From positions 1,148,460-1,212,459 of the forward strand of contig CAUYUJ010016060.1 in the NCBI GenBank assembly GCA_963575745.1: a DNA stretch of 64,000 nt. The letters are read 5' to 3'. This document shows positions 15,604 to 64,000 of the stretch, in pieces; position 1 is the first letter of the stretch; every line of letters starts with the position of its first letter. Made by a program: the position numbers and the translations under genes. The stretch comes from Prorocentrum cordatum. Its lineage: Eukaryota; Sar; Dinophyceae; Prorocentrales; Prorocentraceae. The notes under the pieces were generated by a model, which was not told where the DNA came from, did not search any database, and was given only the letters and a program-made list of their open reading frames with translations.

Positions 15604-18600
15604 CGCCCGCGGCGCCATCATGAGAAAACGGATGAGTGGGGACTGTCGGGAAATCAGCTCCTGAAGTACACATTGTCCTGAGTAGACCCCCGATGCGCGC
15701 AGCTTCTCATGCGAGGCCATGGCCTCACCCGCCTCGCCTTTAAGGGGCCCGGGCGCATGCCCGCACAGGCGATCCGCATCCGCATCCGTATCCGTATCCG
15801 AGAACCATCGAGGACCATCCTGGACCATCGAGCAACAAGAAAACACGCACGAAACCGACAAATGCATGGGAAATGGACGTCCGAGCGATGGCAAGCCAGG
15901 CGAAGCAGGAGAAGCCCCGCGATCCTGGCTTGGCGTCGCTCGGTTTTTTTTCGGCGAGAGCCACGTGGCTACATCATGAGAAAACGGATGAGTGGGGACT
16001 GTCGGGAAATCAGCTCCTGAAGTACACATTGTCCTGAGTAGACCCCCGACGCGCGCAGCTTCTCATGCGAGGCCATGGCCTCACCCGCCTCGCCTTTAAG
16101 GGGCCCGGGCGCATGCCCGCACAGGCGATCCGTATCCGCATCCGTATCCGTATCCGAGAACCATCGAGGACCATCCTGGACCATCGAGCAACAAGAAAAC
16201 ACGCACGAAACCAACAAATGCATGGGAAATGGACGTCCGAGCGATGGCAAGCCAGGCGAAGCAGGAGAAGCCCCGCGATCCTGGCTTGGCGTCGCTCGGT
16301 TTTTTTTCGGCGAGAGCCACGTGGCTACATCATGAGAAAACGGATGAGTGGGGACTGTCGGGAAATCAGCTCCTGAAGTACACATTGTCCTGAGTAGACC
16401 CCCGATGCGCGCAGCTTCTCATGCGAGGCCATGGCCTCACCCGCCTCGCCTTTAAGGGGCCCGGGCGCATGCCCGCACAAGCGATCCGCATCCGTATCCG
16501 TATCCGAGAACCATCGAGGACCATCCTGGACCATCGAGCAACAAGAAAACACGCACGAAACCAACAAATGCATGGGAAATGGACGTCCGAGCGATGGCAA
16601 GCCAGGCGAAGCAGGAGAAGCCCCGCGATCCTGGCTTGGCGTCGCTCGGTTTTTTTTCGGCGAGAGCCACGTGGCTACATCATGAGAAAACGATGATGAG
16701 TGGGGACTGTCGGGAAATCAGCTCCTGAAGTACACATTGTCCTGAGTAGACCCCCGATGCGCGCAGCTTCTCATGCGAGGCCATGGCCTCACCCGCCTCG
16801 CCTTTAAGGGGCCCGGGCGCATGCCCGCACAGGCGATCCGCACAGGCGATCCGTCCGCATCCGTATCCGTATCCGAGAACCATCGAGGACCATCCTGGAC
16901 CATCGAGCAACAAGAAAACACGCACGAAACCAACAAATGCATGGGAAATGGACGTCCGAGCGATGGCAAGCCAGGCGAAGCAGGAGAAGCCCCGCGATCC
17001 TGGCTTGGCGTCGCCTCGTTTTTTTCGCGAGAGCCACGTGGCTACATCATGAGAAAACGGATGAGTGGACTTCCGGGAAATCAGCTCCTGAAGTACACAT
17101 TGTCCTGAGTAGACCCCCGAGCGCGCAGCTTCTCATGCGAGGCCATGGCCTCACCCGCCTCGCCTTTAAGGGGCCCGGGCGCATGCCCGCACAGGCGATC
17201 CGTATCCGCATCCCGTATCCGTATCCGAGAACCATCGAGGACCATCCTGGACCATCGAGCAACAAGAAAACACGCACGAAACCAACAAATGCATGGGAAA
17301 TGGACGTCCGAGCGATGGCAAGCCAGGCGAAGCAGGAGAAGCCCCGCGATCCTGGCTTGGCGTCGTCGGTTTTTTTCGGCGAGAGCCACGTGGCTACATC
17401 ATGAGAAAACGGATGAGTGGGGACTGTCGGGAAATCAGCTCCTGAAGTACACATTGTCCTGAGTAGACCCCCGAAGCGCGCAGCTTCTCATGCGAGGCCA
17501 TGGCCTCACCCGCCTCGCCTTAAGGGGCCCGGGCGCATGCCCGCACAGGCGATCCGTATCCGCATCCGTATCCGATACGAGAACCATCGAGACCATCCTG
17601 GACCATCGAGCACAATAAAACACGCACGAAACCAACACCATGAAAATGACGTCGAGCGATGCAAGCCAGCAAGCAGGAGAAGCCCCGCGATCTGGCTTGG
17701 CTTCGCGGTTTTTTTTCCGAGAGCCACGAGGATATTCATGGAAAACGGATGAGTGGGGATGTCGGGAAATCAGCTCCTGAATACACATTGTCCTGAGTAG
17801 CCCCCCGATGCGCGCAGCTTCTCGTGTTGGGCCTCACCCCCCGCCTTTAAGGGGCCCGGGCGCATGCCCGCACAGGCGATCCGCATCCGCATCCGTATCC
17901 GTATCCGAGAACCATCGAGGACCATCCTGGACCATCGAGCAACAAGAAAACACGCACGAAACCAACAAATGCATGGGAAATGGACGTCCGAGCGATGGCA
18001 AGCCAGGCGAAGCAGGAGAAGCCCCGCGATCCTGGCTTGGCGTCGCTCGGTTTTTTTTCGGCGAGGACCACGTGGCTACATCATGAGAAAACGGATGAGT
18101 GGGGACTGTCGGGAAATCAGCTCCTGAAGTACACATTGTCCTGAGTAGACCCCATGCACACACCGCCTCGCCTTTAAGGGGCCCGGGCGCATTGCCCGCA
18201 CAAGCGATCCGCATCCGTATCCGTATCCGAGAACCATCGAGGACCATCCTGGACCATCGAGCAACAAGAAAACACGCACGAAACCAACAAATGCATGGGA
18301 AATGGACGTCCGAGCGATGGCAAGCCAGGCGAAGCAGGAGAAGCCCCGCGATCCTGGCTTGGCGTCGCTCGGTTTTTTTCGGCGAGAGCCACGTGGCTAC
18401 ATCATGAGAAAACGGATGAGTGGGGACTGTCGGGAAATCAGCTCCTGAAGTACACATTGTCCTGAGTAGACCCCCGATGCGCGCAGCTTCTCATGCGAGG
18501 CCATGGCCTCACCCGCCTCGCCTTTAAGGGGCCCGGGCGCATGCCCGCACAGGCGATCCGTATCCGCATCCGTATCCGTATCCGAGAACCATCGAGGACC

Positions 18601-21600
18601 ATCCTGGACCATCGAGCAACAAGAAAACACGCACGAAACCAACAAATGCATGGGAAATGGACGTCCGAGCGATGGCAAGCCAGGCGAAGCAGGAGAAGCC
18701 CCGCGATCCTGGCTTGGCGTCGCTCGGTTTTTTTTCGGCGAGAGCCACGCGGCTACATCATGAGAAAACGGATGAGTGGGGACTGTCGGGAAATCAGCTC
18801 CTGAAGTACACATTGTCCTGAGTAGACCCCCGATGCGCGCAGCTTCTCAATGCTAGGCAGGGCTCCACCCGCTCGGCCTTTAAGGGGCCCGGTGCATGCA
18901 AGGCACAGGCATCCGTATCCGCGGGCGCGTATCCGTATCCGAGAGCCATCGAGGACCTCCTGTGACCATCGAGCAACAAGAAAAACACGCACGAACCACA
19001 ATGGCATGGGAAATGGACGTCCGAGCGATGGCAAGCCAGGCGAAGCAGGAGAAGCCCCGCGATCCTGGCTTGGCGTCGCCCGGTTTTTTTCCGGCGAGAG
19101 CCACGTGGCTACATCATGAGAAAACGGATGAGTGGGGACTGTCGGGAAATCAGCTCCTGAAGTACACATTGTCCTGAGTAGACCCCCGATGCGCGCAGCT
19201 TCTCATGCGAGGCCATGGCCTCACCCGCCTCGCCTTTAAGGGGCCCGGGCGCGCATGCCGCAGGCGATCCGTATCCGCATCCCGTTATCCGTATCCCGAG
19301 AACCATCAAGGACATCCTGGACCATCGAGCAACAAAAAACACACGCACGAAAACCAACAATGCATGGGAAATGGACGTCCGAGCGATGGCAAGCCAGGCG
19401 AAGCAGGAGAAGCCCCGCGATCCTGGCTTGGCGTCGCTCGGTTTTTTTTCGGCGAGAGCCACGTGGCTACATCATGAGAAAACGGATGAGTGGGGACTGT
19501 CAGGAAATCAGCTCCTGAAGTACACATTGTCCTGAGTAGACCCCCGATGCGCGCAGCTTCTCATGCGAGGCCATGGCCTCACCCGCCTCGCCTTTAAGGG
19601 GCCCGGGCGCATGCCCGCACAGGCGATCCGTATCCGCATCCGTATCCGTATCCGAGAACCATCGAGGACCATCCTGGACCATCGAGCAACAAGAAAACAG
19701 ACGCACGAAACCAAAAAATGCATGGAAAATGGACGTCCGAGCGATGCAAGCCAGGCCGAAGCAGGAGAAGCCCGCCGATCCTGGCTGGAGTCGACTCGGT
19801 TTTTTTTCGGCGAGAGCCACGTGGCTACATCATGAGAAAACGGGGATGAGTAGGGACTGTCGGGAAATCAGCCCCTGAAGTACGCATTGTCTGAGTAGAC
19901 CCCGATTGCGCGCAGATTCTCATGCGAGGCCATGGCCTCACCCGCTCGCCTTTAAGGGGCGCAAAAGCCCGGGCGCATGCCCGCACAGGCGCTCCGTATC
20001 CGCATTCCGTATCAGTATCCGAGGAAACCATCGAGGGACCATCTTGGACCCCATCGAGCAACCAGAAAACACGCACGAAACCAACAAATGCATGGGAAAT
20101 GGACGTCCCAGCGATGGCAAGCCAGGCGAAGCAGGAGAAGCCCCGCGATCCTGGCTTGGCGTCGCTCGGTTTTTTTTCGGCGAGAGCCACGTGGCTACAT
20201 CATGAGAAAACGGATGAGTGGGGACTGTCGGGAAATCAGCTCCTGAAGTACACATTGTCCTGAGTAGACCCCCGAATGCGGCGCAGCCCCTCATGGAGGC
20301 CATGGCCTCACCGCTCGCCTTTAAGGGGCCCGGGCGCATGCCCGCACAGGCGATCCGTATCCGCATCCGTATCCGTATCCGAGAACCATCGAGGACCATC
20401 CTGGACCATCGAGCAACAAGAAAACACGCACGAAACCAACAAATGCAGGGGAAATGGACGTCCGAGCGATGGCAAGCCAGGCGAAGCAGGAGAAGCCCCG
20501 CGATCCTGGCTTGGCGTCGCTCGGTTTTTTTTCGGCGAGAGCCACGCGGCTACATCATGAGAAAACGGATGAGTGGGGACTGTCGGGAAATCAGCTCCTG
20601 AAGTACACATTGTCCTGAGTAGACCCCCGATGCGCGCAGCTTCTCATGCGAGGCCATGGCCTCACCCGCCTCGCCTTTAAGGGGCCCGGGCGCATGCCCG
20701 CACAGGCGATCCGTATCCGCATCCGTATCCGTATCCGAGAACCATCGAGGACCATCCTGGACCATCGAGCAACAAGAAAACACGCACGAAACCAACAAAT
20801 GCATGGGAAATGGACGTCCGAGCGATGGCAAGCCAGGCGAAGCAGGAGAAGCCCCGCGATCCTGGCTTGGCGTCGCGCGGTTTTTTTTCGGCGAGAGCCA
20901 CGTGGCTACATCATGAGAAAACGGATGAGTGGGGACTGTCGGGAAATCAGCTCCTGAAGTACACATTGTCCTGAGTAGACCCCCGATGCGCGCAGCTTCT
21001 CATGTGAGGCCATGGCCTCACCCGCCTCGCCTTTAAGGGGCCCGGGCGCATGCCCGCACAAGCGATCCGCATCCGTATCCGTATCCGAGAACCATCGAGG
21101 ACCATCGTGGACCATCGAGCAACAAGAAAACACGCACGAAACCAACAAATGCATGGGAAATGGACGTCCGAGCGATGGCAAGCCAGGCGAAGCAGGAGAA
21201 GCCCCGCGATCCTGGCTTGGCGTCGCTCGGTTTTTTTCCGGCGAGAGCCACGTGGCTACATCATGAGAAAACGGATGAGTGGGGACTGTCGGGAAATCAG
21301 CTCCTGAAGTACACATTGTCCTGAGTAGACCCCCGATGCGCGCAGCTTCTCATGCGAGGCCATGGCCTCACCCGCCTCGCCTTTAAGGGGCCCGGGCGCA
21401 TGCCCGCACAGGCGATCCGTATCCGCATCCGTATCCGTATCCGAGAACCATCGAGGACCATCCTGGACCATCGAGCAACAAGAAAACACGCACGAAACCA
21501 ACAAATGCATGGGAAATGGACGTCCGAGCGATGGCAAGCCAGGCGAAGCAGGAGAAGCCCCGCGATCCTGGCTTGGCGTCGCTCGTTTTTTTTTCGGCGA

Positions 21601-23750
21601 GAGCCACGTGGCTACATCATGAGAAAACGGATGAGTGGGGACTGTCGGGAAATCAGCTCCTGAAGTACACATTGTCCTGAGTAGACCCCCGATGCGCGCA
21701 GCTTCTCATGCGAGGCCATGGCCTCACCCGCCTCGCCTTTAAGGGGCCCGGGCGCATGCCCGCACAGGCGATCCGTATCCGCATCCGTATCCGTATCCGA
21801 GAACCATCGAGGACCATCCTGGACCATCGAGCAACAAGAAAACACGCACGAAACCAACAAATGCATGGGAAATGGACGTCCGAGCGATGGCAAGCCAGGC
21901 GAAGCAGGAGAAGCCCCGCGATCCTGGCTTGGCGTCGCTCGGTTTTTTTTCGGCGAGAGCCACGTGGCTACATCATGAGAAAACGGATGAGTGGGGACTG
22001 TCGGGAAATCAGCTCCTGAAGTACACATTGTCCTGAGTAGACCCCCGATGCGCGCAGCTTCTCATGCGAGGCCATGGCCTCACCCGCCTCGCCTTTAAGG
22101 GGCCCGGGCGCATGCCCGCACAGGCGATCCGTATCCGCATCCGTATCCGTATCCGAGAACCATCGAGGACCATCCTGGACCATCGAGCAACAAGAAAACA
22201 CGCACGAAACCAACAAATGCATGGGAAATGGACGTCCGAGCGATGGCAAGCCAGGCGAAGCAGGAGAAGCCCCGCGATCCTGGCTTGGCGTCGCTCGGTT
22301 TTTTTTCGGCGAGAGCCACGTGGCTACATCATGAGAAAACGGATGAGTGGGGACTGTCGGGAAATCAGCTCCTGAAGTACACATTGTCCTGAGTAGACCC
22401 CCGATGCGCGCAGCTTCTCATGCGAGGCCATGGCCTCACCCGCCTCGCCTTTAAGGGGCCCGGGCGCATGCCCGCACAGGCGATCCGTATCCGCATCCGT
22501 ATCCGTATCCGAGAACCATCGAGGACCATCCTGGACCATCGAGCAACAAGAAAACACGCACGAAACCAACAAATGCATGGGAAATGGACGTCCGAGCGAT
22601 GGCAAGCCAGGCGAAGCAGGAGAAGCCCCGCGATCCTGGCTTGGCGTCGCTCGGTTTTTTTTCGGCGAGAGCCACGTGGCTACATCATGAGAAAACGGAT
22701 GAGTGGGGACTGTCGGGAAATCAGCTCCTGAAGTACACATTGTCCTGAGTAGACCCCCGATGCGCGCAGCTTCTCATGCGAGGCCATGGCCTCACCCGCC
22801 TCGCCTTTAAGGGGCCCGGGCGCATGCCCGCACAGGCGATCCGTATCCGCATCCGTATCCGTATCCGAGAACCATCGAGGACCATCCTGGACCATCGAGC
22901 AACAAGAAAACACGCACGAAACCAACAAATGCATGGGAAATGGACGTCCGAGCGATGGCAAGCCAGGCGAAGCAGGAGAAGCCCCGCGATCCTGGCTTGG
23001 CGTCGCTCGGTTTTTTTTCGGCGAGAGCCACGTGGCTACATCATGAGAAAACGGATGAGTGGGGACTGTCGGGAAATCAGCTCCTGAAGTACACATTGTC
23101 CTGAGTAGACCCCCGACGCGCGCAGCTTCTCATGCGAGGCCATGGCCTCACCCGCTTCGCCTTTGAGGGGCCCGGACGCATGCCCGCACAGGCGATCCGT
23201 ATCCGTATCCGTATCCGCATCCGAGAACCATCGAGGACCATCCTGGACCATCGAGCAACAAGAAAACACGCACGAAACCGAAAAATGCACGGGGAATGGA
23301 CGTCCGAGCGATGGCAAGCCAGGCGAAGCAGGAGAAGCCCCGCGATCCTGGCTTGGCATCGCTCGGGCGTGTGCATTTTATCCTCGGCGAGGACCACGTG
23401 GCTACATCATGAGAAAACGGATGAGTGGGGACTGTCGGGAAATCAGCTCCTGAAGTACACATTGTCCTGAGTAGACCCACGACGCGCGCAGCTTCTCGTG
23501 CGAGGCTATGGCCTCACCCGCCTCGCCTTTAAAGGGCCCGGGCGCATGCCCTCACAGGCGATCCGTACCCGCATCCGTATCCGTATCCGAGAACCATCGA
23601 GGACCATCCTGGACCATCGAGCAAAAAAACACGCGCGAAACCTAAAAATGCACGGAAAATGGACGTCCGAGCGATGGCAAGCCAGGCGAGGCAGGAGAAG
23701 CCCCGCGATCTCCTGGCGTCGCAAGCTCGCCTCACCCACGGGCGCCTCTC
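15604..23750. repeat. 350-356 bp satellite, about 23 tandem copies
   Basis: Copies restart at the word catgagaaaacggatgagtg (15618, 15974, 16330 and so on) with a 356-bp period, or 350 bp where one atccgc unit is lost. Copies from about 20.5 to 23.0 kb are nearly identical. Those from 16.7 to 20.3 kb carry many small deletions and substitutions. Each unit holds a (ATCCGT)n block, a hairpin built from ccgagcgatggcaagccagg and its near reverse complement, and a T8 run. The repeated open frames of 70-140 codons are by-products of the unit and are not genes. The unit contains both ends of the family A foldback element, internally rearranged. Confidence 0.95.
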
Positions 23751-57060: not shown

Positions 57061-58331
57061 GTTTTTGTTGAACGCTCATTTTTGAAGAAGAATTATTGTT
57101 GATCCCCCCCCACCGATGCACATTGATTTTTTCAATTGAAGTACCCCCCCCGGGGCTCGCACGTTGTTTTTTGTTAAAGAAAGTCTTCCTGCTCAAACTG
57201 GCCCCCTGCCCCCCGGACTACAACAACAACGGCTCCCGCCTGAGACGTCTCCACAATTTAGCCAGGACCCCGCTCCCGCCCGAGATTTCCTCGCATTTTA
57301 TTCAGGAATCGCGCTCTCGCTTGGGACTTCCTTACAATTTATTCAGGAATCGCTCTCCCGGCGCTCTGGAGTCGCGCTTTCGCTGCAGACGCTCTTGCAA
57401 TCTACTATAGAAAAGCGCCCTTGCGTTGGACTTTCTTGCGATTTACTCGAGCGCCGCGCTCCCGACACCCAGGCACCCAGGAGTCGCGCTCACGCTTAGG
57501 ATTCCCTCACAGATTACCTAGGATCTCGCTGCCCTTCGTGGCCCCGCTGCAGCCCTTCCTGGCGCCCTCGCTTTGTTTCGTGGCCCCGCTGCAGCCCTTC
57601 GTGGCCCCCTCGCTGCCCTTCGTGGCCCCGTTGCAGCCCTTCGTGGCCCCCTCGCTGTCTTTTTCGCAGCCCCGTTGCAGCCCTTCGTGGCCCCCTCGCT
57701 TTGTTTCGTGGCCCCTCTGCAGCCCTTCGTGGCCCTCTCGCTGCCCGTCGCGGCCCCGTCGCAGCCCTTCGCTGCCCCGTTACAGCCCTTCGTGCCCCCC
57801 TTGCTGCCCTTCGTGGCCCCGTTGCGGCCCTTCGTGCCCCCCTCGCTGCCCTTCGTGGCCCCATATATGTATGCCCTTCGTGGCCCCCGCTCGTTCGCGC
57901 CCGTGGTTGCCCCATATGCCTGCCCTTCGTGGCCCCGCTGTCGCTTTTCGTGGCCCCCTCGCTGCCCTTCGTGGCCCCGTTGCTGCCCTCAGTGGCCCCG
58001 TTCTTGCCTTCCGCGGCCCAATATACGTATGCCCTTCGTGGCCCCCGCTCGTTCGCGCCGGTTTTGGCCCCATGTGCATGCTTTTCGTTGCCCCGCTGTC
58101 GCCGTGTGTGGCCCCCTCACTGTCCTACGTGGCCCGATTGCTACCTTCAGTGGCCCCATCGTTGCCTTCTGTGTTCCCGCATTCTGCCTTTGCCTTTCAT
58201 GGCCCCCGCTCGTTCGCGCTCTTCGTGGCCCCATACGCATTCCCTTCGTGTCCCCGCTGTCGCCCTTCGGGGCCTACTTCGTGTCCTTCGTCGCCTTGCT
58301 GTCGTTCTCTCTCGCTTTCGCTCAACGCCGT

Positions 58332-58378
<47 letters not shown>

Positions 58379-58650
58379 ACGTCGTCGTCGTCGTCCTCGT
58401 CGTGGTCGGTGCCCTGTCCGTCCCTCTGGGGGTCGGGTCGACGGTCCGCGGCCGCCCCGTCGATCAGCGCTGCCGCTGGCCAGGCCGACGGTCCGCGGCC
58501 GCCCCGCCGCTTGCCGGGGCCGGCCTGCAGGGAAGAAAGGTATACCCCCCAAAAGAGGTTCGATCGAAGACGGAGAGGGCGGGTATCGAGGGTTTGGGAG
58601 ATACGCGTTATTGGACACTCGAGCATCTAAGGGCGAACAGTCTTAAAATG

Positions 58651-58660
<10 letters not shown>
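57061..58660. repeat. Segmental tandem duplication, unit 2
   Basis: Same module order as unit 1, with the TTCGTGGCCCC module expanded to about 800 bp. It starts with gaacgctcatttttgaagaa and ends with gggcgaacagtcttaaaatg. cggtccgcggccgccccg occurs twice within each unit's GC module. Confidence 0.75.
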
Positions 58661-58715
<55 letters not shown>

Positions 58716-58725
58716 GTTGTTGTTG
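58646..58725. repeat. (GTT)n microsatellite
   Basis: An almost perfect gttgttgtt run at the junction of duplication units 2 and 3. Confidence 0.92.
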
Positions 58726-60050
58726 AACTTGCATTTCTGAAGAATACTGTAATCCCCCCGCCCACTTCACATTGCACTTTTGTCGATTGAAGTGCCCCTC
58801 CCGGGGCTCGCACCCTGTTTTATATCAAGGAATGTCGTGGGGCTCGAACTATTTCTCTGGCCCGCTGTTTACAGCAACAGCGGCTCCCGCCTGATACTAC
58901 CTCAGAAGGTATTGAAGAATCGCGCTCTCGCATGGGACTTCTTGGCGCTGTACCACCGGATCGCGCCTCCCGCTTGACATTTCTTGACCAGTGATTGTTG
59001 AATCGCGTTCTCGCTTGGGACTTCCTCGCAACTTACCACCGAACCGCTTCGCTTAATATGTCCTCCCAGATTACTTATGATGCCGATCCTCGACACTCAG
59101 GAATCGCGCTCCCGCTACATATTGCCTGGCGGTTCAAGCATGAGTCACGTTTCAACGACCCGCCTGCTCGACCCGCCCGTCGGGGCCTGCCCGCCAGACC
59201 AGCTCGTTAATTGTTGCAGTCGCCGCTCGCTGCCCTTCGCCCGCCTTCGATGCCCCTCGCTGCCCGTGTTGGTTCCGCGGTCGCCTTCGCTCGCTGCCCT
59301 TAGTGGCCCCGTTGCTGTCCTCAGTGGCTCCGTCGCTGCCTTGTGCGGCCCCGCAGTAGGTGCCCTTCGTTAGCCCCCGCTCGCATGCGCCCGTCGTGGC
59401 CCCATACGCATGCCCTTCGTAGCCCCGCTGTCGCCCTTCGTGGCCCCCTCGCTGCCCTTCGTGGCCCTTTGCTGCCCTCAGTGGCCCCGCTGTCGCCCTT
59501 TGTGGCCCCGTATACGAATGCCCTTCGTGGCCCCCGCTCGCTCGCGCCCGTCGTGGCCCAATATGTATGCCCTTCGTGTCCCCGCTGTCGCCCTTTGTGG
59601 CCCCTTCGCTGCCTTTCGTGGCCCTGGCGCTGCTGCCCTCAGCGGCCCCGTCGCTGCCGAAAGTGGCCTCGAATTTTATGTTCTTCGTGGCCCACGCTGG
59701 CGTTTTTTTTATATGTCGAATCATGCAGAACCCACGCTTCAGCAACCCGCCTGTTCGGCCTCGTCGCCTGGGCCCGCCTTCCCCACCTGCCCGTTAGGGG
59801 TCTGCCCACCCAATCTGCCCGTCTGGTTATACCACTTGTTTTCTTCTCCCTGCCCCCCTCCTGCTAATTTCTCTCGTGCTCCATTATTCACCCTCCCCCT
59901 TCCACCCGTCCCCTCTTCCCTTGTTTTAGGGGCTGCACTAAACACACGTGGCAGGTAAGGAAGATCTACCCCCAAAGGGGCACGATCGAAGACGACGAGG
60001 GCGGGTACCGAGGGCTTGGGATGCACGTACTGATTAGCTCGTGAGCAGAT
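58726..60050. repeat. Segmental tandem duplication, unit 3, partly diverged
   Basis: Begins with gaacttgcatttctgaagaa, carries the ggggctcgcaccctgttt and TTCGTGGCCCC modules (59,235-59,700), and ends with ggcgggtaccgagggcttgg. The (GTC)n and paired cggtccgcggccgcc modules are missing, replaced by cgcctgttcggcctcgtcgc-type sequence. Confidence 0.65.
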
Positions 60051-61045
60051 AGGAGTTGGGGTTGTTAGATGTCAAGAGCAGGCCCCCCGGCCAACCCCAC
60101 CCTGCATACCGCGGCCGCCAGACCCTGAGTTGTCCCGAGAATCTTCCAGTATCCCCGAGAGTCCCTGGGAATCCCGCCCCCTCGCCCTCGACAAACACGA
60201 CTGCATACCGCGGCCGCCAGACCCCAAGTTTTCCCCGAGAGTCCCCGAGTGTCCCTGGGAGTCCCGCCTCGCCCCCTCGACAAACACGAAACAGCATAAC
60301 AGTACACAAAATAACATAGCACAACATAACATAGCAATACCATGACAACATAGAGGAGACTATAAAATCACAAAACGTACCCGGGCAGCATGTACATAAC
60401 AGAAATCGACAGAACACACATTGACATAACATTTTTGATCACAACGTAACGCACCTTGACGGGATGTATCATGTCACGACACCGCGTTCAGAACATATCG
60501 TAACACGGCAACAGAGCATAGCGACGAACACGACAGAGCACAACGTGCCACAAACATGACGGAACATAACATGGCAGTACCATTACAAAACATTGTATCA
60601 CAAAACATCGCAGAACATACCAGATCATATCACGCCAGGACAGACCAACATAGCAGACAGAATACGGCAGAACAGAACAGAGCATTACAGAGCATGCTAT
60701 AACAATGCATTGCATGAAAAAAACATATCACAACTTCATATCACAGAACAAACCAGATCAGAACGTCACATAGCAGAGAAGCGCATAACATCACATAACA
60801 CAATAAAGCATAACATTAGAGAAGATCACATAACACACCAACACCAGGCCAGACCCCTAGATGTCCCGAGAATCCCCGAGTCGCGCCGTAGACAAACCCG
60901 AAACAACACACCATTACACAGCAGACTATGACATACTATAACATAGCAAGATCATGACAACATGAATCATCTCATAAAATCGCACAACATATACAGGCAC
61001 AACATTACATAACAGAAAACGACAGAACACACCATAACATATCAG

Positions 61046-61058
61046 AATTGAGCGTAAC
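61046..61058. repeat. Target-site duplication, left copy
   Basis: aattgagcgtaac, identical to 62,561-62,573. It directly precedes the spliced-leader copy. Confidence 0.85.
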
Positions 61059-61060
61059 AT

Positions 61061-61097
61061 TCCGTAGCCATTCTGGCTCAGGCCAGGCTGGCTCAAG
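61061..61097 (+). other. Tandem relict spliced leaders
   Basis: 61,061-61,082 matches the 22-nt dinoflagellate spliced leader at 20 positions (tccgtagccattctggctc then agg; the canonical form has T at position 13 and A at 21). It is immediately followed, at 61,083-61,097, by ccaggctggctcaag, which matches the last 15 nt of the leader at 12 positions. Spliced leaders are joined to mRNA by trans-splicing and are absent from ordinary gene 5' ends in the genome. Their presence marks a reverse-transcribed mRNA, and a full leader before a truncated one implies two successive rounds of retroposition. Confidence 0.88.
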
Positions 61098-61125
61098 GCT
61101 CCATGCGGGGTCCCCTGAGCTCGGC

Positions 61126-62270
61126 ATGGTGGCTGCGGGAGAGCCCCTCCGTGGGGTAGCCGGTGCGCGCGCGTCCGCCGACCGGCTCATTTTCAAGCTG
61201 AAGAGCAGGGTGGTGGCCGCTGACCGCAAGGCTCTCGCCTTCGAGTCCATGCGCTGCTGCACCTCTTCGGCGACGCGGAGGTTGCGCAGAGGGTCGCCTG
61301 TAGTCTTCCTGCCCTCACGTCCCTCCTCGCGGGCGAGCGGCCCGAAGCGCTGGACATCCTTCGGCGCAACGTGGCGCTCCACTCCGAGGGGCCCTGCGGC
61401 GCGTCTCTGGTCTCAGCTGGCCGTGCCGAGCTGCGCAAGGCCCAGAAGCACGCGCGGAGGCTCGAGGCGAGGAGGGCGGACACCCAGCCCGCGGCTCACG
61501 TGCTGTTGCAGGGCTCCCCGCCCCTCGAGGCCGAGAGCGGGCTCCGTCGTGACCCGCCCCCTTTCGTCCCGAGCTCGGGCTGCTGGGTGCCGCTGGACGG
61601 CTGCGGCCGCCTCTGCACGTGCGGCGCGACGTGCTACTCGTCGTGTTCCCCGCTGCCGCTCTCTGTTGAGGAGGTGTTCGAGGATCACGGCGACGAGGAC
61701 TCTCCGTGTGGCGAGGCGGCTGCTGCTGAGTTTCCGACCAGGGGCGCCCCCCCCGCGTTGGTCGACGGCTTTGAGGGGGTGAGTGGGGCCGCGGGCCCGC
61801 CGCAGGGCGCCGTGCCAGCCTTGCAGCCTGACAGGGAGGCATCTCGTCGTGCCCCTGGCTTGTGGCAGGCGCGCGCGGCAGTCGCCAGAGTCTGGCTGGG
61901 GCCATCGCTGGACGAGGATGCCGTCCCCGAGGCTGCGGGCGGTGTGCTGCGGTTGCGGAGAGTCCGCTTTGCAGATGCCCCGCACGTTATCGAGATTGGG
62001 AGCTGCTCGGGCATGCGTGGTATTCTTCGGCAGGGGAGCGTGCCAAGGCTTCTGGACCCCGCCTGGACGCGCCACGCAAATGCCGTTGACCTCATGCACA
62101 TGATCGAGGGCGACTCTTTCGGCCTCAGGATTCCTCCTACACGGAGGCCGCTGTATTATCGGGCGAGGTTCGCGGTCGGGCCTCGTCTGGTTGAAGCCCT
62201 TCCTCCAGGGATGTCTGTTAAGCGTGCCAGAGAGATCGATCGCCTTCTCAGATTGTGCGGAGGACTGTAG
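61126..62270 (+). pseudogene. Retroposed gene, unknown protein, apparent 1-nt frameshift
   Basis: The ATG at 61,126 lies 28 nt after the second spliced leader. The first frame reads MVAAGEPLRGVAGARASADR, then LIFKLKSRVVAADRKALAFE (to about 61,250). Protein-like sequence then continues in another frame: HALLHLFGDAEVAQRVACSL, LTSLLAGERPEALDILRRNV and so on to LLRLCGGL with a TAG ending at 62,270. The change equals a single-base loss near 61,240-61,255. No introns are apparent. The central part has a Cys cluster (CLCTCGATCYSSC). RLRRVRFADAPHVIEIG contains an RVxF-type pattern like PP1-docking sites, followed by GSCSG. The C-terminus is basic. I do not recognise the family. A sequencing error instead of a true frameshift is possible. 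Confidence 0.65.
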
Positions 62271-62560
62271 CTCGTAGGCCCCGCAGAACACGCTGTATGT
62301 GAGTGGATTTGTGCAGTTGTGAGTCGATTGGGATATTGACTAGTATCTATTCTTTTCGGTCCTGCACTTGTTGTGGTCTTGTGCAGTCTATGCTCTCGCC
62401 AGTGCTGCACTTGATGGTTTGTCTTGTGTAGTATATACCAGAGGCTTCGCCTTCTGTATGTGCTGCACGTGTCTGGGGGGGGGGGGGGCCCAAGGCGGCC
62501 TCCTCTGTCTGCGTTCTGCCCGCCACTTGCCTTGAAGGCCCCGTCTTTAACTTTAACCTT
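62271..62560 (+). other. 3' untranslated part of the retroposed copy
   Basis: No open frame is evident. It contains a G12 run near 62,475. The last bases before the duplicated target are ctttaactttaacctt, a short repeat-like tail in place of a poly(A). Confidence 0.55.
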
Positions 62561-62573
62561 AATTGAGCGTAAC
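62561..62573. repeat. Target-site duplication, right copy
   Basis: aattgagcgtaac, identical to 61,046-61,058. The array sequence resumes immediately after it with gtgacacactttgacgg. Confidence 0.85.
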
Positions 62574-64000
62574 GTGACACACTTTGACGGACCATAGTAT
62601 ACCATTTCACAGCGTTCAGAACAGATCAAACAACGGCAACAGAGCATAGCGACGAGTACGACAGAACACAATGTGCCACGATAGAAGATAATAACACAGA
62701 GTGCAACGATTACAGAACATGACGGAACATAGCATGGCAGTACCATTACAAAACATATCCTGACATAACATCACAGAGCATACCAGAGCATATCACGCGA
62801 GAGCAGGCCAACATAGTAGACAGAGCACGACAGAACAGAACATAGCATTACATAACATGACAAAAATGCATTGCACGAAAGAACAGAGCACAACTCCATA
62901 TCACAGAACAATCAGAGCAGAACGTCACATAACAGAGAACCGCGCAACATCACATAACACACCGCGCCAGAACTTAAATGATATCACATAACGAACCAAC
63001 ACCCTGGCCATACTTCCAGTTGCCCCGAGAACCCTTTGAGTCGCGTCTTCGACAAACCCGAAACAACACAATATTACACAACAGAACATGACAGAACATA
63101 ACAGCAATTTCATGACAACGTGAATCATCACATATCATCGCACAACGTAGCCGGGCACACTTTTACATAACAGAAAACGACAGAACACACCATCACATAA
63201 CATAACATAACTGATCATAACATGATGCATCTTGACGGAACATGCCATATAATGACACAACCACCAGAACATAGCATAACACGACAACAGAGCATAGCGA
63301 CGAACACGGCATAACACAACACTGCACAATAGAAGGTCACAAAACCGAACACGAACATGACATGATATTTCGGAGCATAACATGGCAGCATGATTTCAAA
63401 AAACACGGAAGATCATCGCATGACATACCACAGTATACCACGACAGAACGGAAGATATAATACACCATAACACAGCACCAATACACAACACCATCATTTG
63501 GCATAACATACCATGCAATGGCATAGTGCCACAGGGCAGACCATACCATCACATTATCAAGCATATGCTGGCAGAGATGAGCATAACAGAACGTGTTCAA
63601 TCAGAAGGGACGCATCTAGGTGAAGATGCGAATCATCACAGACGACGCATCTAATGTCACAAACGTCACGGCGTGTCGACAAAGAAACACGACATTCCAC
63701 AACATCACACAGCAGAACCTGACATAACAGTTTATAGCAATCCTGTGCAAACAAAAGCAAAACGTACCATCATAAAGCATACAAGGGCAGACTCTGACAG
63801 AAACGCAAACGACATTTAAAAACCATACTATATCATATCCGCGCAGAACATAGAACACCATGGTGGAAGAACACATATCATGATACAGCCACCAGGGCAT
63901 ATCATAACACGACAACAGAGCATAGCGACGAACACGACAGAACACAGCAGTGCACAAGAGGAGGTAACATAACAGAACACGAGCATGACATCTTATGACG

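Follow-up and report, generated by a model that had tools for sequence, protein, structure and literature searches.

Dinoflagellate retrogenes marked by relicts of the spliced leader (DinoSL) were reportedly described by Slamovits and Keeling in 2008. In later accounts, such genes carry a 37-nt tandem of DinoSL and a 15-nt relict on an intronless body, and multiple relicts are taken to reflect multiple cycles (PMC6050394, PMC12014239); a relict is what is left of the leader when the first seven bases are removed (PMC12014239). Song et al. (2018) called the retrogene machinery of dinoflagellates unknown and favored Ty1/copia (PMC6050394), and in a 2014 EST study, all retrotransposon clusters identified by Blast in Oxyrrhis were Ty1/copia (PMC3942190). 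A 15-genome comparison counts full-length leaders and relicts, and its available text makes no mention of separating mobile elements (PMC8045281). In the literature searched, in which subscription journals were thinly covered, we found no description of leader-headed LINEs or of target site duplications (TSDs) at dinoflagellate retrogenes.

Among transposable elements, HAL1 is a half-LINE mobilized in trans, SLACS/CZAR and R-type LINEs target SL-RNA or rRNA genes, and UnaL2-type elements exemplify LINE/SINE pairs with "stringent" recognition of the 3′ tail. Here we describe a 1.5-kb insert in a 64,000-nt stretch of Prorocentrum cordatum DNA (the window) that resembles each of these systems in part. 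Like HAL1, the window family is ORF bearing, lacks a reverse transcriptase (RT), and would be mobilized in trans, but it has no poly(A) and carries a spliced leader at its 5′ end. Strand-specific insertion into a repeated target recalls SLACS/CZAR and R-type elements, whereas here the target is a pentamer-based satellite and the leader lies in the element rather than in the target. As described in part of the literature on stringent LINE/SINE pairs, non-autonomous elements have the 3′ end of an RT-bearing element, a simple-repeat tail, and TSDs of LINE length (PMC3747384). The likeness is in sequence, and here the body is protein coding and trans-spliced, with a host leader at the 5′ end that is apparently renewed in each cycle. 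The ingi/L1Tc clan of trypanosomatids, in which LINEs and non-autonomous elements of a trans-splicing protist have a common 5′ signature, is marked by Pr77, which activates transcription and yields unspliced transcripts (PMC8190864), whereas the common 5′ end here is the spliced leader. Finally, the dinoflagellate retrogenes, as far as the accessible text goes, are host genes (PMC6050394, PMC12014239), whereas the unit described here is a mobile family found in many copies. Its 3′ end is of LINE type, its insertions lie in satellites and show a nick motif, and one of its relatives bears an RT. The insert is very probably a non-autonomous member of a LINE-type non-LTR retroposon system whose RNA is SL trans-spliced, because its ends recur genome-wide, on other bodies and on a 6.5-kb element, and because its insertion sites have a nick motif in common.

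RESULTS

Borders and leaders of the insert

Toward its right end the window consists of an A-rich satellite, which is broken by a GC-rich block of 1.5 kb (coordinates are on the + strand). It is bounded by two exact copies of a 13-bp word, AATTGAGCGTAAC, at 61046 to 61058 and 62561 to 62573, and the word occurs exactly at only these two places in the window. The flanks have 101 exact 13-mers in common, and AATTGAGCGTAAC is the sole one at offset 1515; nearly all the others have offsets that correspond to satellite units (approximately 2.12 kb and upward), and one is at 1639. The direct repeat around 1.5 kb reported in the initial annotation was thus confirmed as a unique exact pair. The left copy would place the nick at CAG/AATTG (between 61045 and 61046). 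The next two bases, 61059 to 61060, are either untemplated or part of the duplication, which would then measure 15 bp and contain one mismatch; with the mismatch allowed, the insert begins exactly at nucleotide 1 of the leader.

A 22-nt DinoSL with 2 substitutions forms the 5′ end of the element (61061 to 61082) and is followed by a 15-nt relict with 3 substitutions (61083 to 61097), which corresponds to an older leader cut after CCGTAG. As a tandem, 61061 to 61097 agrees with leader plus relict at 32 of 37 positions, leaving 5 mismatches, whereas in a simulated control for such a double leader none of 60 windows had fewer than 11. The leader noted earlier behind the left repeat is therefore present, but it starts after 2 nt rather than 3, the earlier count having run to CCG. 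Its description as near complete understated it, since the second part, the relict, was overlooked.

Body and 3′ end of the insert

The ORF, 380 aa in the family, runs from an ATG at 61126 to a stop ending at 62270. No intron is visible in this interval, as the initial annotation had it, although the frame is broken once near 61250 by a 2-nt length change relative to the family. Scans of the ORF against Pfam and NCBIfam gave no match, a PDB search gave none that was convincing (best E value, 0.22), and viral contigs searched for relatives of the insert yielded none. A single-sequence AlphaFold2 model was discarded for its mean pLDDT of 39.3. A search for an RT within the window, which covered six-frame motif scans and 30 of the 60 ORFs listed with a length of 220 aa or more, found none. 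Two matches among the window ORFs were judged spurious: PF21531, above its cutoff but confined to a 14-residue stretch of a GC-rich frame, and PRIMA1, which was below cutoff.

The 3′ untranslated part (62271 to 62528) contains a run of 14 G's at 62475 to 62488. It is followed by the 3′ motif GCCTTGAAGGC plus CCCG (62529 to 62543), a short inverted repeat that recurs at the 3′ ends of related elements, and, in the position of a poly(A) tail, by a CTTTAA-type hexamer tail, TCTTTAACTTTAACCTT (62544 to 62560). The terminus thus reads GCCTTGAAGGCCCCG-TCTTTAACTTTAACCTT. There is no poly(A) tail of the kind expected for an L1-type processed pseudogene; no more than 2 A's stand in a row near the 3′ end. 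A fixed 3′ end with a simple-repeat tail is what non-LTR elements using target-primed reverse transcription (TPRT) display. The exact 29-nt tail occurred 111 times in 4.13 Gb, and a reversed control occurred 0 times. Hexamer periodicity is weak evidence by itself (85 clusters in the window); the tail counts because it recurs at element ends. Folding of the last 121 nt as RNA was no stronger than that of shuffled sequences (z, 0.15), and in the structure of lowest energy the motif is paired elsewhere instead of forming a separate hairpin. The stem is altered in two of the elements (L005 and L028), and a tally of loop variants demanded the stem in its pattern and so does not bear on stem conservation.

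The insert interrupts a satellite array with paralogous empty sites

The flanking DNA (60279 to 61045 on the left and 62574 to 64000 on the right, where the interrupted unit resumes) consists of units of approximately 612 to 648 bp built of diverged, CANAA-like 5-bp repeats, CAGAA rich on the + strand. Autocorrelation over 60279 to 64000 peaked at lags of 5, 10, 15, and 20, a strong internal 5-bp periodicity, and this satellite is a pentamer-built higher-order repeat. Elsewhere in the window, a 356-bp tandem satellite (15616 to 23710; 22.9 copies, 93% match), with a run of the hexamer ATCCGT in several units, looks unrelated to the pentameric one, and 57528 to 59658 holds arrays of 21-bp and approximately 157-bp GCCCTTCGTGGCCCC-type repeats with long open frames on the + strand.

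The joined flanks of the insert were aligned with neighboring repeats, as the initial annotation had proposed, and they matched units at 60.4, 63.2, and 63.8 kb. Alignment of the joined flanks placed paralogous empty sites at 60420 to 60470 in an upstream unit and at 63196 to 63245 in a downstream unit. Deletion of 1515 nt gave unit spacings of 613 to 645, compared with 612 to 648 elsewhere in the satellite. The claim that the satellite reads as continuous once the insert is removed therefore holds for three units, with the unit register restored. For satellite unit A, no shift at all is needed for the best fit of the junction; for satellite unit C the best fit is 10 nt off (407 versus 394), which we explain by unit lengths that differ by 10 nt. 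When the left and right flanks were aligned separately, they overlapped by 24 to 26 positions on each of the three intact units, more than the 13 to 15 of the duplication, because the right-hand local alignments extend some bases into the AT-rich tail.

The initial annotation held that an uninterrupted unit should not carry the 13-bp word at the same position. This refuting case occurs in part: no exact copy is there, but a version with 3 mismatches is, at 63209 to 63221. Alignment places it at the same position in the unit, and it is single copy, as an empty site predicts; approximately 9 such 3-mismatch versions are expected per window by chance. The locus thus combines, as was claimed for it, a target duplication with paralogous empty sites. 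Identity among the satellite units, with the interrupted one joined, is only 65 to 79%, and the array therefore appears to be older than the insert.

The same ends recur genome-wide

The genome (4.13 Gb, 21,875 contigs) was searched with the insert, and 40 of 395 candidates were scored. Among these, 48 matches were listed, of which 30 were fetched and 18 partial ones were left aside. Besides the window copy, ten copies span from leader base 1 (within approximately 5 nt) to the tail, and 23 of the 30 loci that were fetched showed the start of a copy with its leader; L024 and L027 represent a single copy, and the leader of L009 starts further upstream. The head of this family, whose body we call A, is a perfect DinoSL plus CCATGCTGGCTCAAG. 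Like SL-tagged retrogenes, the window insert has a DinoSL and relict at the head of an intronless body. No intron-bearing parent gene was recognized among the 30 fetched loci of the 48 listed matches. The initial annotation was correct in seeing a trans-spliced RNA retroposed into a satellite but not in seeing a lone host mRNA copied once, as the same two-ended sequence recurs across the genome.

Sixteen A copies differ from their own consensus by 2.6 to 4.8% (4.0% for the window copy), and 6 of the 16 lack a frameshift or stop. Substitutions in the ORFs of the copies (405 nonsynonymous and 196 synonymous; ratio of 2.07 versus 2.26 expected) look near neutral, with no clear constraint. On contig C9335, two similar element-bearing stretches approximately 22 kb apart (L006 and L024/L027) are apparently a segmental duplication.

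The surroundings of the A copies contain other elements, whose bodies differ; all are headed by a leader, and many then end in the 3′ motif. The proteins encoded by bodies A, B, and D are related (approximately 35 to 51% amino acid identity by tblastn; best E value, 7e-66), the strongest match, A with D, including a recently shared 3′ module. Exchange of 5′ and 3′ modules between families near A position 873 to 886 was seen in L018, L020, L021, L028, and L030, in a pattern such as template switching might produce. Related but different 3′ ends were found in L012, L013, L014, L016, and L029, and no such 3′ end was found in the fetched flanks of L019, L022, and L023. The A copies in L012, L013, and L016 end in GCCTTTA(A)TAGGCCCCGCG and sit in (ACACAG)n arrays, so that tail type and target type may be linked. 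One leader-headed element with two relicts (L038 5604) has the tail ACTACAACAACAACTACAAC rather than CTTTAA repeats.

Target duplications, nick site, and orientation

Thirty elements, with several different bodies, were tabulated. They were selected as a leader followed by the 3′ motif, and their sharing of both ends is thus partly by definition; leaders after which another leader, or the end of the stretch, came before any motif (e.g., L009 4232, L021 23, L033 1421, and L038 7903) were omitted. The set comprises 27 elements from an automatic table, from which a repeat row (L038 5634) was dropped, plus L005, L034, and the first element in L032, which have a mutated motif and were added by hand. 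TSDs were called in 26 of the 30, with lengths of 11 to 25 bp and a mode of 14; 20 of the 26 were 13 to 17 bp long. Among 870 mismatched flank pairs, 119 (14%) also passed at this score, false TSDs that arise from satellite flanks. At a score of 14, TSDs were found for 10 of 30 elements versus 18 of 870 mismatched pairs. Target duplications of LINE length, variable and at many different sites, are thus present, as in TPRT.

The nick fell at CAG/AA in 15 of the 26 called elements, against a CAGAA background of 0.95% per position, with the proviso that the caller tested only right ends after five trinucleotides and could have favored an AA start. For 23 elements a freer caller also made a call; its left word was identical in 11 and overlapped in the remaining 12. 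Insertions lie mostly in CAGAA-rich satellites, and the left flanks contain CAGAA and TTCTG in a ratio of 195:8. Leader and motif matches were confined to a single strand at 17 of 18 loci. Multiple elements occur at only 9 of the 18, and 8 of these 9 are one-stranded, the exception being L033. L006 and L027 are a duplicated pair, and L006 and L035 overlap by approximately 0.7 kb. Exceptions to the target preference are the three copies in (ACACAG)n, which have another tail, and L014, which lies within another LINE and has a third tail.

A putative autonomous partner and the leader ladder

One locus, L032, contains an element of 6.5 kb (2655 to approximately 9210) that starts with a leader plus relict and has an open frame of 1,624 residues. 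Its tail is of the same kind, and its target duplication, AACACAGGAGCATGG, is 15 bp long. Searched whole, the frame matched nothing in Pfam at 0.01, with only zf-RVT at 0.11. Searched piecewise, the RT piece matched RVT_1 with an E value of 2.6e-5 (24.5 bits versus a curated cutoff of 29.6), and Exo_endo_phos (0.066) and RNase_H (0.099) were both under their curated cutoffs. By eye, the motifs QETR, NSGGVA, KADGGVRPIAL, VVDDIAL, and LYLDGSA appear in the expected order. We take the element as an endonuclease-RT-RNase H LINE, and shared ends and targets make it the likely autonomous partner of the window family.

The number of relicts behind the leader varies between copies of the same body. 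The LINE body has none in four copies and one in another; the D body has one in two copies and two in another; and the A body has one in 17 of 19 tabulated copies, L009 having two and L007 being scored as zero for an extra base in its relict. All three leaders of L009 (outer, middle, and inner) differ. Such 15-nt steps between copies in three families are the trace to be expected if the RNA were trans-spliced anew after CCGTAG in each cycle.

DISCUSSION

Proposed cycle

Copies of this system begin at DinoSL nucleotide 1, carry behind it 0 to 2 relicts of 15 nt (DinoSL minus its first 7 nt), and terminate in a GCCT-N-AGGC-CCCG motif, with CTTTAA repeats in the window's type. In the cycle that we propose, an inserted copy would be transcribed from the surrounding satellite or array, and its pre-RNA would be trans-spliced at the AG inside the CCGTAG of its own leader. 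This step would restore a full leader and leave the old one behind as a 15-nt relict. The LINE enzyme would then recognize the 3′ motif and tail and nick CAG/AA, reverse transcription would be primed on the AAC-like end of the tail, and the copy would enter satellite DNA by TPRT. The window copy is a young, frame-broken one; it bears two leaders and would therefore have passed through at least two cycles of trans-splicing and insertion.

Alternative explanations

Shared words are common enough in this A-rich satellite (101 exact 13-mers between the flanks) that one might take the 13-bp repeat for chance and the gene for an old resident between two satellite blocks. This has next to no probability, since only AATTGAGCGTAAC stands at offset 1515, removal of the insert restores the unit register, and insertions of the same family elsewhere have duplications of their own. 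A retrocopy made only once, from the mature mRNA of a host gene with an intron-containing parent, would account for the leader, the intronless ORF, the TSD, and the empty sites. DinoSL relicts are moreover the accepted mark of retrogenes (PMC6050394, PMC12014239). The many genome copies with both ends, the same 3′ end on other bodies, the absence of poly(A), and the preference for certain insertion sites nevertheless make it improbable, although the A body could have descended from a captured host mRNA. Insertion by the machinery of LTR retrotransposons such as Ty1/copia is what Song et al. judged likelier from expression (PMC6050394), and we consider it very improbable here in view of the recurring 3′ motif and tail and of an RT-bearing element with the same ends. 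TSD length points the same way. LTR integrases produce fixed target duplications of 4 to 6 bp, whereas the duplications here have a mode of 14 bp and are neither short nor fixed.

The other two alternatives concern the origin of the ORF and of the relicts. If the ORF were the ORF1 of a LINE that is itself autonomous, with the 1.5-kb family as its HAL1-like, ORF1-only derivative, related ORFs in bodies A, B, and D would be expected, as a protein useful for mobility would be kept in several bodies. Against this, none of the fetched loci holds an RT-encoding element with the A ORF, and the first ORF of the LINE in L032 gave no tblastn match to A. The L014/L039 copy had been considered as such an autonomous LINE and was rejected for its own 14-bp TSD; it is an A copy (L039 3774 to 5531; 3′ end, GCCTTCATAGGCCCCGCAGCCCACAGCCCA) nested in another LINE with Exo_endo_phos and RVT_1 matches. 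We regard the ORF1 origin as a possibility of some weight, but a doubtful one. Extra relicts might instead have come from RT slippage or from repeated trans-splicing of one RNA rather than from successive insertion cycles; they are tandem 15-nt repeats, which can slip, and in L041 the D copy has a perfect relict in the middle position. The leaders of L009, however, all differ, as if they had drifted in the genome before reuse, and this alternative seems unlikely. A LINE-type system that mobilizes a trans-spliced, non-autonomous RNA thus remains our preferred reading of the insert.

Implications for dinoflagellate retrogenes

Comparison of the copies inclines us, on balance and with only slight confidence, to a broader proposal. 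SL trans-splicing may serve as the step of the retrotransposon cycle that repairs or tags the 5′ end, with the number of relicts as a count of generations, and CAGAA-rich satellites may act as oriented landing pads for head-to-tail, leader-separated, polycistron-like stacks of LINE and non-autonomous elements. LINE-type machinery, and not Ty1/copia, would then be a likely source of at least part of the dinoflagellate "retrogenes" counted by their relicts.

Retrogenes recognized by relicts are said to number in the thousands in dinoflagellate genomes, and the locus described here, with its relatives, offers a concrete candidate for the machinery. This candidate is of LINE type; its 3′ end, its nick site, and the length of its TSDs are defined, and its leaders would record its cycles. 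The question of the retrogene machinery thereby becomes testable, in terms of the tail, nick, and TSD that other retrogenes have. Leader-based counts of retrogenes and of SL genes may include mobile elements.
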